IMG/VR virus record: IMGVR_UViG_3300028676_000005
Location: 1 to 64,000 of that record
Direction: 5' to 3' (one strand)
Length of the DNA stretch: 64,000 bases
Source of the DNA: a virus
Shown here: piece by piece, positions 11,207 through 48,500 of the stretch
Layout: every line of letters begins with the position of its first letter
How positions within the stretch are numbered: the stretch's first letter is position 1
Program-made: the position numbers and the translations under genes
The notes under the pieces: model-generated
Seen by the model: the letters and a program-made list of their open reading frames with translations, nothing else
Database searches by the model: none
What the model was told of the DNA's origin: nothing

Positions 11207-11282
11207 TGGCTCCGCGACCTGGACTCGAACCAGGGACCAACAGATTAACAGTCTGCTGCTCTACCAACTGAGCTATCGCGGA
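11207..11282 (-). tRNA. tRNA-Asn (GTT)
   Basis: 76 bases, full cloverleaf: acceptor TCCGCGA/TCGCGGA, anticodon stem CAGA-CTGTTAA-TCTG with anticodon GTT, T-arm with TTCGAGT, encoded CCA. Confidence 0.95.
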
Positions 11283-11414
11283 ATGTAGCAGAAATCATTA
11301 GACATGTCTTAGGACTTTTACCCCACGTTTTTATCAAGGGCCGACTGCCTAGGCGCCCTGCGTGTTTTCTTTCTTTACCAGATTACCTTGATCACGGGGT
11401 CTGATAAAACAATG

Positions 11415-11490
11415 TGGCGGCGTAGCCAGGAGTCGAACCTGGAACCTTCGGTTTTGGAGACCGATGCTCTGCCAGTTGAGCTACTAGGCC
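11415..11490 (-). tRNA. tRNA-Trp (CCA)
   Basis: 76 bases. Anticodon arm TCGGT-CTCCAAA-ACCGA gives anticodon CCA. D-arm GCTC/GAGC, T-arm CCAGG-TTCGACT-CCTGG, encoded 3' CCA. The acceptor GGCCTAG/CTACGCC has one C-C mismatch. Confidence 0.92.
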
Positions 11491-11894
11491 TAATCTAAAT
11501 CTTGGGCGTCATTGGGTTCTTACCACGGGCCTTCAGCGGTGACCGACGACCAGGTCACACCCACGTTCTTCAGCCGAAGCAACGACTAAATCTTGAAATT
11601 GAATCCGTTAGCTATTATCAGGGTAGGAGACTGCCCGGTTACCAAGCCTGATAATAACTGAGTCACCTAGTCACGGAAAACAACGTAGGTAACTGCCAGG
11701 ACACCCCTGGCTGGTGTAACAGAGTTAATCCCCCGACTCCCATCTGTTACTTAACACGAACCACCAGCGTCATGGGTCAGTGTTAACATTTGAATTCAGG
11801 TAGGTCTACAGACTTTTACTGTACGTCATGAGTAACAGACCGGCCTCCAGATCTGTAACGGTTTTCTTCAGGGCGCAGGGCAGCGGCTAGAATA
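11491..11894 (-). other. Structured non-coding spacer within tRNA cluster
   Basis: No coding frame with a ribosome site. Three hairpins are visible: GTGACC/GGTCAC (11539-11558), TATTATCAGG/CCTGATAATA (11613-11622 with 11647-11656), and GTAACAGA/TCTGTTAC (11716-11723 with 11743-11750). A fourth, imperfect one lies near 11830-11860. Loops are 8-24 bases. Confidence 0.55.
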
Positions 11895-12016
11895 AGGTAG
11901 AGAGTGTGGGATTCGAACCCACGGGAGCAAGCTCACAGCCGGTTTCAAAGCCACCGCGCGGAAGACCGTACCGCAACTAATCCACCAGCCTCCTTCAACC
12001 ACTCGGACAACTCTCC
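11895..12016 (-). tRNA. tRNA-Ser (TGA) interrupted by about 35 bases in the anticodon loop
   Basis: Acceptor GGAGAGT/ACTCTCT, class II D-arm (TCCGAGTGGTTGAAGGA), long variable arm (TGTGAGCTTGCTCCC) and T-arm (GTGGG TTCGAAT CCCAC) are those of a bacterial tRNA-Ser. The anticodon stem GCTGG/CCGGC is complete, but the loop is 42 bases. Its 3' end reads TTTGAAA, a perfect Ser TGA loop. Removing 35 bases between positions 31 and 33 would give a standard tRNA. The insert folds as GCGG...CCGC inside. CCA is not fully encoded. It may be intron-bearing, an arm-extended tRNA or a broken gene. Confidence 0.75.
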
Positions 12017-12375
12017 AGAAACAAGATCCGTTCGCCATGACTGCAAGAAGGCGGATAACCGTCTACCAGCAATATGTTCTTACTTTCCCGTAGCCACGGA
12101 TAACAGCGGACCGAATACCCTGGAACAACATGAATGGGTACTGGATCAGCACGGGAAAGACCTCATGCGAGGTGGGTCGTCAAGGCTACTCTAGGAGTGC
12201 GTCGACTATCGAGCCAGCGACCAGGCCGGCTAATGAACGGGTCATCCCCGTTTATCCAGTTACAGGTGCCGTGAATGGGGACCTGTAACCAAATTTGTAT
12301 TAGAGTAGGGACATTATCCTTAGTCTCTTCGAAGGGCCCTCCGCAGATTGCACCCAAGACTGTATACTAACCACC
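12017..12375 (-). other. Structured non-coding spacer within tRNA cluster
   Basis: No supported gene. Adjacent hairpins AACGGG/CCCGTT (12236-12252) and GTTACAGGT/ACCTGTAAC (12259-12267 with 12281-12289). Confidence 0.5.
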
Positions 12376-12425
12376 CAATGTGTCGTGAGGGACTCGAACC
12401 CTACATGCCGCTATGGCGACAGAAC
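12376..12425 (-). other. tRNA-like 3' fragment
   Basis: A T-arm-like segment (AGGG TTCGAGT CCCT) is followed by ACGACAC, which could be the 3' acceptor strand, but no matching GTGTCGT exists upstream and no CCA follows. It is either a decayed tRNA or one whose 5' half I cannot find. Confidence 0.35.
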
Positions 12426-12484
12426 CCAACCTACGCATTGATGATCTGACTTACCTGCCCGAGGAGACTAAGGTAAATCAAATA

Positions 12485-12561
12485 TGGCGCAACCAAGGGG
12501 ACTCGAACCCCTGACCACCCGCGTGACAGGCGGGTATTCTAACCAACTGAACTATGGGTGC
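12485..12561 (-). tRNA. tRNA-Asp (GTC)
   Basis: 77 bases. Anticodon arm CCCGC-CTGTCAC-GCGGG, anticodon GTC. D-arm GTTC/GAAT, T-arm AGGGG-TTCGAGT-CCCCT, encoded CCA. The acceptor GCACCCA/TGGTTGC has one mismatch. Confidence 0.94.
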
Positions 12562-20566: not shown

Positions 20567-23500
20567 TTATGCTGCTTTTTTCTTGTTCTGCACCATACGC
20601 TTAGCTCTTTCGAGTTTGGCGTTTTCAATCAACGTATCTACTGTCAACAGTTTAGCTGCATCTGGTGGAAGCAGTTTGCTAAGCTTGATGATCTCAGCTT
20701 CCAAACGAATAGCCAAAATGTTGTCAGGAGTTTTAAGCAACTCTTCTGTAAACGCGGCAATCTTGAGACGGATGTTCTCAAAGAACTTCAACATCGAAGG
20801 ATCTACAGGAGGTGCTTTCTTGTCCTTACCTACATCGAGGAGACTTTGGGTCTCAATAAGAGCAAGCGCTGACATGATGCCGTAAAACGGTTTGTTTGCC
20901 CCCAACTTGATAAACCAGTAGGTAAGCAACCAGGAGATAACCAAGTCATCGTGCTGTTTCGAATCGTGGTCAATGCGATCGCCCTTAGTCCTTAGGTTAA
21001 TCAATTCATCGGCCAGCTTATCGTAGTTAATCCCATACCCAGTAATGGCAACCGCTTCTTGAATAAGACCATACAGGACCTTACGCGAGTTAGCTGTTGT
21101 CACAAACCCAAACAGATGTTTAAGTTTCAGATAGAAGTTCTTATCACGATAAGCAAACTTGGTGTTTTGAACAATCTCCAATTCTTTCTGATGGTTAACA
21201 GGGTCTTGATAGACTTGGTTGTAGATCCGTGTGAACGGGTCCATTCCTTTACTTGGCAAGATAATCAGCAAACTGTCGATCATGTGGTGAGCATAGTTAC
21301 GCTCAATCACCAACACACTGTTCTGAATAACTTCCAAGAGGTCCACGATAACCGCTGTCACATCGTCCAGGAGAGCCAAAGCGTAACGACCCACACCAAC
21401 TACCGTACCTGTCTTCATCGACCGTATAACGACCGTACAGGCGTCCTTGTTGATAGCAGAAGAGGTATCCACCCCAATGATGAAGTGATCGTTGTGTTCC
21501 TTCTTACTCATTTCAGCAAGTTTTTCTTGAGTAACAAAGAAGTCCACAAACAATCCACTATTGCGATACTCTTTGCTCCAGACACGTTCTCGTTTAACGT
21601 TGTTAATTGCCTCACGAGTAATGTCGTCGAACAAACGACTCTCACCATCCTCAACCCACATTAACAACAAGTCGATCTTGGCCTTAGCCAAAGTCAATTT
21701 GAGATCGTCAATGGTGCGTTTTACCCAGTCCTTGTTCTTACCTAGTTGCAGGTAGTTGTAAATCATGGATACCGCAGGAGAAGTAGTACTCTCCGGAGAT
21801 GCCCTAATCAACCGATCCTTCAGATGGCTTTCGCTGAACGAATCAAAGAACTTCTCACGCCACTCGGTAGCAGACATGAGTTTCTTGAACATGAACTCGC
21901 CACTCGGGTGAAGAGTAGTGTTCGGGGTGGTGATGTAACCAATACCGTACGTGATGCCAGCTTCTCGACAGAGTTCCATTTCCGTCAGAGCAGAAGGCAT
22001 CGAACCGTTGATGATCGCCTCAATCCAAGGAATGTATCCAGGCTCATCGAGGAACGTTGTACCTACCGTAAGACCACGACCAACGTCACCAGCGGCATCT
22101 TTACCGATCTGTGGAACGTTAATCGTTAATACGTTTACCTTATCGTCACCAAAAGACCTGTACGTCAGCGAGGTACCAGCATCCTTGTCCTTATACGTCG
22201 GGTTAACGAGGTACGTGGGGATACAGCTTCGCATCCGTTTAACAGCATCAATGAACTGAGCCCTGTTATCACTTTTCAGGGTAATAACGTGAGTCTTGTA
22301 ACCACGCCCATTGATGTAAGTCAGCCAGAAGTTAATAACCTGAACAGACACTGTGTTGTGAGTAACAATGAAGTCATCCGTTACGTACAGATGTTCCTCG
22401 TTGTCAACCTCAATACAGGTGCATTCATCATGACCAGCGTAAGACGTCTTGGTAATGAACAAACGGTTTTCTACATCTGGTCTTGGTGCATCTTTAAATC
22501 GGAAGTAACCAACTTCGTCTGGAAGGGTGACAACTACCGAATCTTTAAAACCTTTAGCTGTACCGCCAAGACTACGCGCCAGGTATTGAACCTGGTTAAT
22601 CAGGACCGGTGTAAGCCCTTCACAGAGAACACCAGACTTCGTTACCTGACCTTGGTCAAGAAACGCCTGTAGCGCAGCTGTACGGTCTTTAATAGAGCCT
22701 TCCAGATAGTCCGTGGGAAGGCCAGCTTCTCGACGAATACTGAAATCTTTGTTATTACCCATTGTCAGGTAATACGCGTCACCTTCAACCACCAACCGCA
22801 AATGCTTTGGCATATTGGTAGCAATGAAGTTAACAGCCGTAGTCGACAGGTTAGCCAACTTAAGCTTACCACCTTGCTGCTCTTGAGCAAACAAAGTACC
22901 CATGATGTACGGGTCGGTAATGTGATTCTGGCAAGGACCGTCTTCAGGGGTAATTACTGGCAACTCAACCTTCACACCTTTCTTGATAAGGGTGATGATT
23001 TGTGCTGTGGTGTATTCATCCCAAACTGGCTCACCATTGATCTCGTTAGAGTGGTCACCAATGTTCCACAAATGCTCAGCACCAGCGTCAGTGCGACGTC
23101 CGTCAGAACACTCAATTGTGTAAAGACGTTTTTTACCTTGTGGGTGAATACCGATAACCGTTGTAGGTTTACCAAGCCGGTCAATAACCTCATCGCCAAT
23201 ACGAAGGTCTTTTATCTTGACCCAACGATCTTCAAGACGAATCGTGCCATTACCCGGCATGTAACGCTTGACGCGAACCTTAGAACTGTTACGCTGGAAC
23301 TTGCCTTGCTGACGAGGCATGATCATGTAAGAAGTAATGTGGTTCAGGTAGTTCCAGATAAAACTAATGTTACCCCGGTTTGCCTGAAAGAAACGGTCAG
23401 AACGAACCTTGCAGATCTCTCGTAGAAAATACCAGAAGTTAGTTCGGCATTCTTCCATGATCCACATGCGCTGATCGTTAGTCAGATCTTCCGCATATGG

Positions 23501-23848
23501 GTCCACACCTTTCAGCATTGGGTTGTTAAGTTGCAAACAGAAGAAGTAGTTCTTAATCCCCTGCCTTTTAAAAATCTCTGCCGTACGTAAGAAACTTTTG
23601 TTAGGGGTTTCCATATCCGGAACTGCCCGATAACGCATGAAGTCCTTAAGAAAACGTACAGTCTTAATGCTGTGCAAACTATCTTCGTTGAAGTGAGCCA
23701 TTAACAACTCATCTTCGGTACGTGCTTTCCAATCGACACGCAGTCTATCGTCGTCAATCAATTCCTTAGGAAGATTGTGTGTCCCCAGATAGTCGTACAT
23801 GCCCTTGGCCGATTCGAGTAATCTAGCGTACTCTACATTCGTGACCAT
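20567..23848 (-). CDS. terL: Terminase large subunit, interrupted by an intein
   Basis: 1093 codons from ATG 23848 (GGAG seven bases upstream; a TTG two codons earlier is less likely). Residues 178-183 (PRQQGK) are the first part of the packaging-motor Walker A, which resumes as TVSVQVINFW only after 315 residues. The inserted segment is an intein, described separately. After it come Walker B (TTFLDEPGYI, near residue 598) and the RNase H-like nuclease start (HFIIGVDTSS, near 790). The mature terminase would be about 778 residues, close to phiKZ gp25. It uses ATP to translocate DNA into capsids and cuts concatemers. Packaging depends on splicing, because the intein splits the ATP-binding loop. 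Position before the three virion genes and sheath matches phiKZ gp25-gp30. Confidence 0.92.
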   Translation of the reverse strand: MVTNVEYARLLESAKGMYDYLGTHNLPKELIDDDRLRVDWKARTEDELLMAHFNEDSLHSIKTVRFLKDFMRYRAVPDMETPNKSFLRTAEIFKRQGIKNYFFCLQLNNPMLKGVDPYAEDLTNDQRMWIMEECRTNFWYFLREICKVRSDRFFQANRGNISFIWNYLNHITSYMIMPRQQGKFQRNSSKVRVKRYMPGNGTIRLEDRWVKIKDLRIGDEVIDRLGKPTTVIGIHPQGKKRLYTIECSDGRRTDAGAEHLWNIGDHSNEINGEPVWDEYTTAQIITLIKKGVKVELPVITPEDGPCQNHITDPYIMGTLFAQEQQGGKLKLANLSTTAVNFIATNMPKHLRLVVEGDAYYLTMGNNKDFSIRREAGLPTDYLEGSIKDRTAALQAFLDQGQVTKSGVLCEGLTPVLINQVQYLARSLGGTAKGFKDSVVVTLPDEVGYFRFKDAPRPDVENRLFITKTSYAGHDECTCIEVDNEEHLYVTDDFIVTHNTVSVQVINFWLTYINGRGYKTHVITLKSDNRAQFIDAVKRMRSCIPTYLVNPTYKDKDAGTSLTYRSFGDDKVNVLTINVPQIGKDAAGDVGRGLTVGTTFLDEPGYIPWIEAIINGSMPSALTEMELCREAGITYGIGYITTPNTTLHPSGEFMFKKLMSATEWREKFFDSFSESHLKDRLIRASPESTTSPAVSMIYNYLQLGKNKDWVKRTIDDLKLTLAKAKIDLLLMWVEDGESRLFDDITREAINNVKRERVWSKEYRNSGLFVDFFVTQEKLAEMSKKEHNDHFIIGVDTSSAINKDACTVVIRSMKTGTVVGVGRYALALLDDVTAVIVDLLEVIQNSVLVIERNYAHHMIDSLLIILPSKGMDPFTRIYNQVYQDPVNHQKELEIVQNTKFAYRDKNFYLKLKHLFGFVTTANSRKVLYGLIQEAVAITGYGINYDKLADELINLRTKGDRIDHDSKQHDDLVISWLLTYWFIKLGANKPFYGIMSALALIETQSLLDVGKDKKAPPVDPSMLKFFENIRLKIAAFTEELLKTPDNILAIRLEAEIIKLSKLLPPDAAKLLTVDTLIENAKLERAKRMVQNKKKAA
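22355..23299 (-). mobile_element. Class 3 intein with decayed LAGLIDADG endonuclease, in terL
   Basis: 315 residues from Phe after GK to Asn before Thr. It ends VTHN and the next extein residue is Thr, as in inteins. Residue 1 is Phe, not Cys/Ser/Ala, so the usual first nucleophile is missing. The three class 3 marks are present: Trp in block B (AEHLW, intein residue 78), Cys in block F (CTCIEVD, residue 295) and Thr in block G (VTHN, residue 313). The central part has LAGLIDADG-like blocks, but both acidic active residues are gone: IMGTLFAQ (near 132) and LQAFLDQGQ (near 210-218). The intein should splice but not home. Confidence 0.88.
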
Positions 23849-23873
23849 GACCAAACTCCGTTTGTTGAAAACA

Positions 23874-44612: not shown

Positions 44613-45521
44613 TCAGTAGAGAGTGTTTACGCGAACACGGTTGGTAAGGCGCATACCTTCGTAATACTCCGAATACATCCGCTCGCAAATTTGACCAACG
44701 GTGATGACGCCGGTGTTAGCCGCATCAAAACCTTTATTCTGAACATAACCTTTAGCGTTCATGCGATCGGTGGAGTCACGACGGAAGATAACTTCGTTAG
44801 GACCTTTACCAACAGCAGCAGGATAGAAGATAGTCAGATAGAAATCTTCCAGACGACGGTAGACCTTACCGCGCTTCTCCCACATTTCGAAATACTTGAA
44901 GACCAGGTCCAATTGTTCCAACTGCGACATGGCCTTAATTTGATCAAGGGTAAGACCCAGGTCAGTGGCGGCATCTTTACCAAACTGAATCAGACCAAAG
45001 TACTGAGCACCACCTTGATTCTGAATGGTAGGGCTGAAAGTACCAGCCGACTCAAACTTCATGCAAGCCATCAGGTCAGAACCAGCACGGGCCCAGTAAC
45101 CTTTCCTGCCAACCCAAGACTTAACTTTGGCCAGGAACTCAGCAGGCACCTTAGTGCTGTACGCCAGGTCATAACCGCGAATCTTGTTGTAAGCACGATA
45201 ACTGTTAAACACTTTGAGCAGGCCAGCGTTGCTACCCTCACCCCAAACACCGTCAATGTCACCGGAGTAAAGGTTCAACAGTTTCAGGTTACGTTGGATA
45301 ACCTTAATAGCTTCGCTACCATCATCCCAAGTAGCTGGGATGGGAAACGGAATGATCGGATGACGACCACCGTTAACACGTTGATTGTAATCAGTAAAAA
45401 TGGCGGTGGCAGCAACAACGCTACCTTTACCCCATTTGCCGTCAATTGATCCGGAGTAAAGGTCGCACTCTTGCGAGGCGACCTGAAAGTCCCGGATTGC
45501 ATTAAGCAATCGGTAATCCAT
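44613..45521 (-). CDS. Endolysin with two peptidoglycan-binding repeats and a lytic transglycosylase domain
   Basis: 302 residues. Two N-terminal repeats share the peptidoglycan-binding type 1 core: LYSGSIDGKWGKGS (21-34) and LYSGDIDGVWGEGS (84-97). From about residue 145 a goose-lysozyme/transglycosylase-like domain begins, with the catalytic Glu157 in ACMKFESAGTFSP. This modular order, cell-wall binding first and catalysis second, is that of phiKZ gp144, EL gp188 and OBP endolysins, which lyse the Gram-negative wall at the end of infection. No signal peptide, so export needs a holin; none is adjacent. ATG 45521, three bases after the RNAP beta gene. Co-location with the virion RNAP differs from phiKZ. 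Confidence 0.86.
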   Translation of the reverse strand: MDYRLLNAIRDFQVASQECDLYSGSIDGKWGKGSVVAATAIFTDYNQRVNGGRHPIIPFPIPATWDDGSEAIKVIQRNLKLLNLYSGDIDGVWGEGSNAGLLKVFNSYRAYNKIRGYDLAYSTKVPAEFLAKVKSWVGRKGYWARAGSDLMACMKFESAGTFSPTIQNQGGAQYFGLIQFGKDAATDLGLTLDQIKAMSQLEQLDLVFKYFEMWEKRGKVYRRLEDFYLTIFYPAAVGKGPNEVIFRRDSTDRMNAKGYVQNKGFDAANTGVITVGQICERMYSEYYEGMRLTNRVRVNTLY

Positions 45522-45524
45522 TGT

Positions 45525-48500
45525 TTATTTACCTCTGTAAATTCTTGCAGCCTGAAGAGAAACATCGGAAACCAGCTCACCGGTAACAGCCTCGTCACGC
45601 AAGCTGTTAACCATCCGGTTGAGTACACCCTTAAAGCTCTTCTTGACATCCACCCGCTTACCGCTCTTGGTATAAATAGCTTTAGGCATCACATAACCAG
45701 TGGTTGCCTTCATCTGATTGCCAAGAACGTATTTGTCAGCCGTTGTACTTCCGTCCAACGTCTCGATGTAGATGGTGATTGCAACCAGTCCAGGCGGGAT
45801 AACAGGTTTAGCTACGTTAAGGTTACTGTTGACAGCCCCAGTTACTGGCTTCTTGCCTTCAGTTTCCATGAAACGTTTACGCTTCTTGTCACCATCCTTA
45901 ACCAGTTTTGCAATTGTCTCGGACATCTCCTCAAAAGGGGAGTTGTATTTGACATCAATGTCCACAATGGTGCCGTGGTTCTTAGAGCGAATTTGGCGAA
46001 TGCCCAAACGGTTAATTTCGTTGGAAAGATCCTGTACCTCAGACGTACCGCCAAAAGCGGCGCTGTCTTCGATTTCGCATAAAATCGCATCATAATCGAC
46101 TTCGTCCCCAATCTTTACCCGCAAAGCAATCGAATGATTGGCCTGCATGGTAAATGGAACTGGGTTAAGGAACGGAGTGATGAAGATGGATGCAAGCTCA
46201 CGCGACATTGCAATGGAGTCTTCATACGTGTCTTGGTCTTCAACCATGGCAATACGAACCTGGTAACCTGTGAGCAAAACAACCTGCCCAGGGTTAAAAG
46301 GATCTCGCTTAAACCACTGCTCATCCCAACCAATAACGTCACCCTTCTTGAATTTGTCACCAACTTTAAGATCGGTAACACGGGTATGCCTGTGGTATTC
46401 ACCACTCGCTTCCCCAATAACAAATCCAAGAGGATACTTGTCGGTAGTGCCATCGGAATAAGTAACCAGCAACTGGTCTTTCTCAACACCCGTTACCTGG
46501 CCATGGTCATTGGCAACCTTGCTGTACAGTGTGGAGGTGCGGTGGGCCAATACAGAATCGTAGCCGGTACGCACGGTGCTCCACTCATAGTTGCTAGCAC
46601 TAACTGCTTGCGACCATTGCGTAGACACAAAGACTTGACGTTTAGAGTCATCCTTGGTAATAGAGGGTGACAGGTTACCAGTTACAGACATCAGCCCAGT
46701 GTAAGAAGGCTTACCGAGCATGTCCATGTTGCCACGGTAGTCTGCAATTAGAGGGTCACTGGTAGTGTAGGTTACAAACCCTACCTTACCACTATCTTTG
46801 TTAGCCTCACTGATCCGACCTTTGTAACTTGGAAGTTGAATACGAGCACGCTCTACAACAGTGATCTCGCTACGACCACCCGTACCACCAAAAGTGACCT
46901 CTTCCTGATCTTTACATTGGTGAACCGGGTTTACTTCTTCAACCAAGTTTACCGACGTATCGGTAATGATCTTCATGGTAACCGCGTCAGGGTTAATCTC
47001 AAGCTTGTACTTGCGATCAGTCCCTTTGTTGTTGTACTTCCGCACTGCCTCACAGAACTCGCCATACAGGTGACCTGCAAAGCGCTCATAGCCGACAATA
47101 CGTTGTTCTTCAAGCTCTACTTCGTTACGAGTCTGATCAGTCTCCAGCAGCTCTACAGCATCAAGCAGTAGGTAGTGCCAAGAATCGGCATACTTAAGAC
47201 GACGCAAAGCTTCTTTGGTAATCGGATCAACAAACAGGTCGTAAGTGTTCTTCATCTCTTTGAAATGACGAGCCTTAACTTTAGGGTCAGCCATGAGCGG
47301 GCCCCAGACACCATTGTTGTTCAAATCACTTTTGCTAAAGTTGCTGATGTTGCCAAGACCAACCAACCCACCAAAGATCATGGTGGCAAACTTTTCACGA
47401 CGATCAAAGATCAAATACTCATCGTTAAAGGTAATTGCGTATTCATCGCTTGCCAACTTAGGACGAGTCCCAGCTGGAACGCTACGAGTGGTGGCCTTAG
47501 TCACCTCAAGCAGTTTTGTGATACCAAAGTACCAACAAAGAACAACACCGATTGGAAACAGATAACCACTGATGTTAATGGATGCATATTCAAGAGGCGC
47601 CTTAGCCAACGTGAAACCCATTAACTCTTCAATAGTACCTACGTCCTCATCACCTTTAAAGATATTACCAAAGCTGTCGATAGTCAAAGGCTCTTTACCC
47701 TTAACACCGATCAGGAAACCATCTTTCTTCGTGAACTTGCTGAACTCAGGATGCTTCTCCAGTAATTCTGCCAATCGGAAGTCGAAGGTATAGTCTTTGG
47801 TTTTAATCCATTGGAAACGAGTAGCCAACGCACTGTAGATACGAGGGCTTGGATAGCTTTGATCAAACTGGCTACCACGGTTAAAAGTAAGGACCCCAGC
47901 TTCACCTTGTTTAAGAACCTGCTTACTCAGCCAGATCCCCAGGTCTTGGGCAACCTTCCGACTACGGGTAACCATAAAGCGGCTTGGGTAATAACTACTC
48001 AAAGCTACTTTAGCTCGACCAATCTTGCGAATTGGTTGCTCACGACGTTGCAGCTGCATGTGTGACTTAACACCGTCTACCGTAAAGGTAGCGTCATCCT
48101 GGACCGTAGGGAACCGAATAACGTGAGTGGATTGATCACCATTGACAGGGTGGAATTGAACGCTAAGAACGTCATACTCACCTTCAACACTGGTAACCGT
48201 TTCCAACTTAAAGTTGTTAAGTGCAACACCGGCGTTTTGAATGTTAACCGCCATAGCTGCGATGTCTTTATGCAGGAACTTCTTGGCATAGGTCTGTTTA
48301 AGCACCTTAGCTTTTGACTGAAGCATGCTCTCGTCAAGGATGGTGATAAACTCACCGGTAATCAAACCATCAGCTTTAAGCTCTTTCAGTTCCTCTGGGG
48401 ATACCTTCATGAACTCTTCAAGCGTTTGGCCGTTACCCATTTCAATATGCTTGAACTGAGTACCTTTTCGCATAAAGAACTGCTGCTCTGCAACACTAAG

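Follow-up and report, generated by a model that had tools for sequence, protein, structure and literature searches.

A predicted class 3 intein with a degenerate homing endonuclease in the terminase Walker A loop of an EL-like jumbo phage

The large terminase (TerL) of a jumbo phage related to phage EL is interrupted in its Walker A loop by a resident that is very probably a class 3 intein carrying an inactivated LAGLIDADG endonuclease. The gene lies in a window of 64,000 nucleotides, the whole stretch of DNA analysed here (positions 1 to 64,000 of IMG/VR virus record IMGVR_UViG_3300028676_000005). Taken as a whole, the data are best explained, with high confidence, by an intein that has occupied the terminase Walker A loop since before the EL-like phages diverged. 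Class 3 inteins at Walker A belong to a known type with a wide distribution across phages and bacteria, and the window intein is a further member rather than a new class. What is added here is the presence of the intein in all the EL-like terminases recovered, its invariant WCT, His and Asn residues, the loss of its endonuclease aspartates and the co-divergence of intein and extein. The degree to which the EL-like terminase intein has been fixed after endonuclease loss is unusual.

The terminase gene, its insert and the class assignment

An open reading frame of 1095 codons on the minus strand of the window (20567-23854) matches PHROG 2 (terminase large subunit) with an E value of 4.4e-44, and its product is 63% identical to the TerL of EL and 58% identical to that of RisingSun. 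The best start is the ATG at 23848, with CGGAG 7 nt upstream; a TTG at 23854 is also possible. An earlier note on this DNA had assigned the gene to a jumbo-phage terminase of the Chimalliviridae and had given sizes of 1093 residues for the precursor and 778 for the spliced product. The family assignment agrees with the PHROG 2 match and with the nearest TerLs, those of EL and RisingSun, whose genera (Elvirus and Risingsunvirus) belong to this family in the NCBI taxonomy, and both sizes follow by arithmetic from the sequence with the ATG start (183 + 595 residues after splicing). A search for chimallin with phiKZ gp54, a weak query in that EL also gives no match, returned nothing. Over 10.9 kb the window agrees at 99.99% with another contig (IMG/VR 3300029990), making an assembly error unlikely. 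Elsewhere in the window, tRNA genes for Asn, Trp and Asp are clustered at 11207-12561 on the minus strand.

Translation of 22355-23299 (minus strand) gives 315 residues, FQRNSSKV...DDFIVTHN, flanked by ...MPRQQGK and TVSVQV... (Table 1). Alignment with four intein-free Chimalliviridae terminases of 771-777 aa (pTD1, VP4B, Sureiya and Kc263) places the insert, in frame, at the precise point where Lys meets Thr in Walker A (PRQQGK/T), at the junctions that the earlier note had read, and with the insert removed Walker A is whole again. The insert contains the motifs GAEHLW (H76, W78), TCIEV (C295) and VTHN (T313, H314, N315), and the C-extein opens with Thr at +1. Residue 1 is Phe, so that the nucleophile found at this position in class 1 inteins is lacking. 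W78, C295 and T313 make up the triplet by which PMC3196547 and PMC7891396 define class 3 (the WCT definition and the class 3 mechanism are set out there and in PMC5050341); beside this triplet the active-site set is complete, with H76, H314, N315 and Thr+1.

Table 1. Features of the terminase gene and its intein, with two further inteins of the same record
Feature	Position	Strand	Basis
Large terminase (TerL) precursor, 1093 aa	20567..23848	-	PHROG 2 match, identity to EL TerL, CGGAG before ATG
N-extein, 183 aa, ending MPRQQGK (Walker A through Lys)	23300..23848	-	Alignment with intein-free TerLs
Predicted class 3 intein, 315 aa, F1...N315	22355..23299	-	Translation, alignments, structure model
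N-terminal part of splicing (Hint) domain, residues 1-117	22949..23299	-	Alignments, structure model
Block B: H76 (B:10), L, W78 (B:12, Trp of WCT)	23066..23074	-	Invariant in 26 TerL inteins and in 35/35 EL-like copies
Degenerate LAGLIDADG homing endonuclease domain, residues ~125-275	22475..22927	-	PI-SceI match by profile and fold
C-terminal part of splicing domain, residues 283-315 (blocks F and G)	22355..22453	-	Alignments
C295, block F:4 Cys, putative branching nucleophile	22415..22417	-	Invariant
T313-H314-N315, block G:5-7 (WCT Thr, penultimate His, terminal Asn)	22355..22363	-	Invariant
C-extein, 595 aa, opening with Thr+1 of Walker A (TVSVQV), rest of terminase	20570..22354	-	Translation, alignment
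Predicted class 3 intein, 250 aa, GSGK/T of SNF2-like helicase	76911-77660 of the record, outside the window	+	
Predicted class 3 intein, 258 aa, GGGK/T of UvsW-like helicase	213187-213960 of the record, outside the window	-	

An AlphaFold model of the insert (pLDDT 90.9, pTM 0.90) combines a Hint with a LAGLIDADG fold. Its best fold matches in the PDB are PI-SceI over the whole length (E 3e-12) and, over the splicing part, the class 3 inteins 6bs8, 6riy and 6rix (TM 0.7-0.8 on the target for 6bs8 and 6riy). Profile searches find 6riz, an engineered WCT form of gp41-1, at 1.5e-18 and the class 3 DnaB intein of M. smegmatis (6bs8) at 1.1e-14, and the endonuclease part matches PI-SceI. In a tree of 126 columns, built without a class 1 outgroup, the window intein groups with WCT inteins. 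Against the Hint and intein models in Pfam and NCBIfam the insert falls below the cut-offs, indicating that its sequence has diverged and that family scans alone would therefore miss it. By all the sequence and fold criteria that we ran, the insert is a class 3 intein, and its splicing chemistry is predicted from that class. Model confidence is modest at residues ~11-25, a clade-specific loop that follows the first strand and precedes the conserved Trp26; many EL-like copies have up to ~14 extra residues here, which none of the other aligned class 3 inteins has.

A collection of class 3-like loci was drawn from phages, viral contigs and bacterial genomes; GK precedes the insertion point in 160 of the 175, an upper estimate given that intein boundaries were set by a script favouring GK, and Thr or Ser comes after all of them. 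Walker A thus appears to be the usual home of class 3-like inteins. These loci, and the 1701 class 3 inteins counted in nr in 2020 (PMC7891396), do not sit well with the earlier description of this as a rarer class. The closest known systems are the TerL inserts of EL (gp11, YP_418044.1), RisingSun, FishSpeaker and IMG/VR contigs, which share the gene, the GK/T site, the motifs and the dead endonuclease; the window intein is 45% identical to the EL copy and 40% identical to the RisingSun copy. They differ from the window intein only in sequence, and their database records carry no intein label. InBase lists inteins of phage EL, and the EL copy is perhaps already catalogued there. Searches of a literature collection on inteins in Chimalliviridae, EL and PhiPA3 found nothing on the window's terminase gene and no report of its splicing, and the RisingSun paper yielded no passage on splicing.

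The TerL inteins of Miami, N1M2 and PS1, also Chimalliviridae, resemble the window intein in gene, site and WCT triplet but differ in having ~30% identity, both LAGLIDADG aspartates and the RefSeq name 'DarB-like antirestriction'; the N1M2 terminase, moreover, has a near-identical intein-free relative. The mycobacteriophage TerL1-a inteins (PMC5050341) likewise interrupt a phage terminase and split its P-loop at the Lys-Thr junction, although their hosts belong to another terminase family and phage group. The WCT triplet, the Hint fold and a P-loop ATPase host are also found in two class 3 mini-inteins, M. smegmatis DnaBi1 (6bs8) and M. chimaera DnaB1 (6rix), which reside in DnaB and lack an endonuclease domain. 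The AceL NrdHF intein (PMC7891396) is also class 3, differing in being split, in its NrdHF host and in its varied triplet.

Conservation, descent and loss of the endonuclease

An insert at the same terminase site is also present in EL, RisingSun, FishSpeaker, PDCC-1, Miami, N1M2, PS1 and others. When IMG/VR was searched with an alignment of the C-extein alone, and thus blind to the intein, 45 terminase loci were recovered. All 35 at 63% identity or above (the EL-like terminases) contain the intein; the ten at 52% or below comprise four with an intein and six that are empty. Recurrence at one site in EL, RisingSun and others and in 35/35 EL-like IMG/VR terminases argues against a chance insertion. 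None of these 35, which reduce to 23 once near-copies are removed, departs from B:10 His, B:12 Trp, F:4 Cys, G:5 Thr, G:6 His or G:7 Asn. Residue 1, on the other hand, may be any of seven (Y, M, A, F, L, P or Q) in the EL-like copies and is of nine kinds over a wider set of 26 TerL inteins. A free first residue together with a fixed block F Cys is what class 3 predicts. The earlier note's reading of a class 3 intein with neither Cys nor Ser at its first position is thereby upheld: Phe1, W78, C295, T313, the Hint fold and the conservation across all 35 copies agree with it, and the first residue is never Cys, Ser or Thr in the EL-like alignment.

The EL-like terminase inteins (17 in the 126-column tree, again without a class 1 outgroup) form a single clade with full support, and intein and extein identities are correlated (Mantel r 0.88, p 1e-4). 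Both observations point to vertical descent within the EL-like clade, so that the lateral spread into the Chimalliviridae proposed in the earlier note is not needed for the window copy. A single origin of all Chimalliviridae terminase-site inteins is not rejected (p-AU 0.89), so that terminase may have been entered once or more than once. A scenario of several independent entries was dropped, as the tree holding all terminase inteins together was not rejected and scored above the free tree. Outside the EL-like group, the terminase exteins of N1M2 (with intein) and Sureiya (without) are 98% identical, suggesting that gain or loss is still occurring there.

The earlier note did not mention endonuclease inactivation. 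Relative to the motifs of Miami (LLGDG...LLDTDG), the catalytic Asp positions of the window intein are replaced by Q139 and G217, substitutions at odds with active LAGLIDADG homing. Amongst the 23 non-redundant EL-like copies, the second catalytic Asp is gone from all and the first from 22; the terminase inteins of Miami, N1M2 and PS1 retain both. Omega in the least saturated EL-like pair (L081/L082) rises from 0.051 in the extein and 0.056 in the splicing part to 0.161 in the endonuclease part. This order, extein lowest and endonuclease highest, is kept in most EL-like pairs, the values being rough with dS near saturation in most. Judged on these sequences, the endonuclease of the window intein and its EL-like relatives is inactivated, and the intein would be unable to home on its own.

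Splicing, retention and alternative explanations

With the GK and T of the P-loop 315 residues apart, the precursor should not bind ATP. Terminase would be made as a 1093-residue precursor in which ATP binding is off before splicing. By analogy with its class, C295 would attack the Lys-Phe1 amide bond to give a branched thioester, the N-extein would pass to Thr+1 and N315 would cyclise with the help of H314. Rearrangement of the ester would then yield a Lys-Thr peptide bond and hence a terminase of 778 residues whose PRQQGKT loop is intact, along with a free 315-residue intein. The intein itself would be inherited with the gene, with no self-homing.

Whether these residues could serve another chemistry or none deserves consideration. 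The WCT triplet alone is no proof of pathway and the class 1 gp41-1 intein is also a close match, but a class 1 or class 2 mechanism is scarcely credible given a first residue that is never Cys, Ser or Thr in EL-like copies and an invariant F:4 Cys; class 2 inteins, besides, were known solely from KlbA genes (PMC3196547). It is hardly more probable that the Hint domain is dead, or merely cleaves in the manner of a BIL-like domain or pseudogene, leaving the terminase split or bulky with no extein ligation. Some class 3-like sequences are indeed inactive, an example being Arth_1007 of Arsp-FB24 (PMC3196547), but that protein lacks the F:4 Cys and the B:10 His, whereas all catalytic residues are invariant in the 23 diverged copies here. 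The splicing part is moreover under strong purifying selection, and TerL is essential, with a P-loop that stays broken unless the exteins are ligated. As for an active homing intein spreading laterally among jumbo phages today, same-site relatives in Miami, N1M2 and PS1 have both catalytic aspartates and the near-identity of the N1M2 and Sureiya exteins speaks for a recent gain or loss there. At least one catalytic Asp is nonetheless replaced in the window and all EL-like copies, and both in nearly all, and the endonuclease part evolves faster; we accordingly rejected an active mobile element for the EL-like clade, and give the idea very little credence as an account of the window copy.

How the intein persists without homing is best accounted for by passive retention, precise removal from an essential P-loop being rare; we favour this over regulation. 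The regulatory alternative, in which the intein is kept as a useful control that holds the terminase motor off until conditions such as redox state (acting on the block F Cys) or compartment permit splicing, seems unlikely. In its favour, all 35 EL-like terminases are occupied without a working endonuclease, against 14 of 24 at a UvsW-like helicase site of the same set of genomes; the window and several relatives have another Cys shortly ahead of the catalytic one, two residues away (C293-T-C295); and conditional splicing is described for a class 3 intein, that of M. smegmatis DnaB (PMC6195587). An absence of losses is equally expected, however, if precise P-loop deletions are rare and every imprecise one is lethal. 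C293 varies within the clade, with A or S in its place in RisingSun, FishSpeaker and others; occupancy is almost as stable at the SNF2 site (14/15); and related phages outside the EL-like clade manage without the intein. Still less probable, in our estimation, is full domestication in EL-like phages, with homing-dead Walker A inteins kept in terminase and two helicases and their splicing timing ATPase activity. A terminase intein with a dead endonuclease that occurs in every EL-like phage seen, set against a helicase site of the same genomes that is only about half occupied, offers a natural test of retention by lack of deletion versus retention by use, and phage EL can be grown in the laboratory, so that splicing is directly checkable.

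Further inteins in the genome and its relatives

The record from which the window derives (229,429 bp) encodes two additional class 3 inteins, each of which splits Walker A at K/T in a helicase (Table 1); by eye, their translations show no LAGLIDADG motifs. Phage EL has four class 3 inteins. The fourth, with intact LAGLIDADG motifs, lies in an RNA polymerase beta-like subunit (gp39, 44708-47818), and its site, AAGK/SLTNN, does not belong to a P-loop. In the window phage this RNA polymerase site is intein-free, with Met at the Lys position.

We surveyed the helicase sites in 24 EL-like records chosen for an intein-bearing TerL. An intein occupies the SNF2 site in 14 of the 15 records that yielded the gene; at the UvsW-like site the count is 14 of 24. 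The ten empty UvsW-like genes are open frames of 510-523 codons; an intact GxGKT is visible in seven, and the remaining three, without the exact pattern, are too short for an intein. In Shewanella phage FishSpeaker, the UvsW-like and SNF2 inteins are 64.5% identical, have intact endonuclease motifs and are close neighbours in the tree, likely reflecting a jump between two P-loop genes within one genome.

Several intein-bearing terminases and helicases are labelled 'DarB-like antirestriction' in RefSeq, a label possibly carried over through the intein. Recognising the intein corrects the annotation of an essential packaging motor in a phage family that has been studied extensively, its precursors being listed as single long terminases or, for some relatives, under this name. 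Aeromonas phage PS1 has a separate intein within the stretch 179500-183500, with a CFVAGT start and an ATHN/C end (class 1 type), in a gene that resembles thymidylate synthase.
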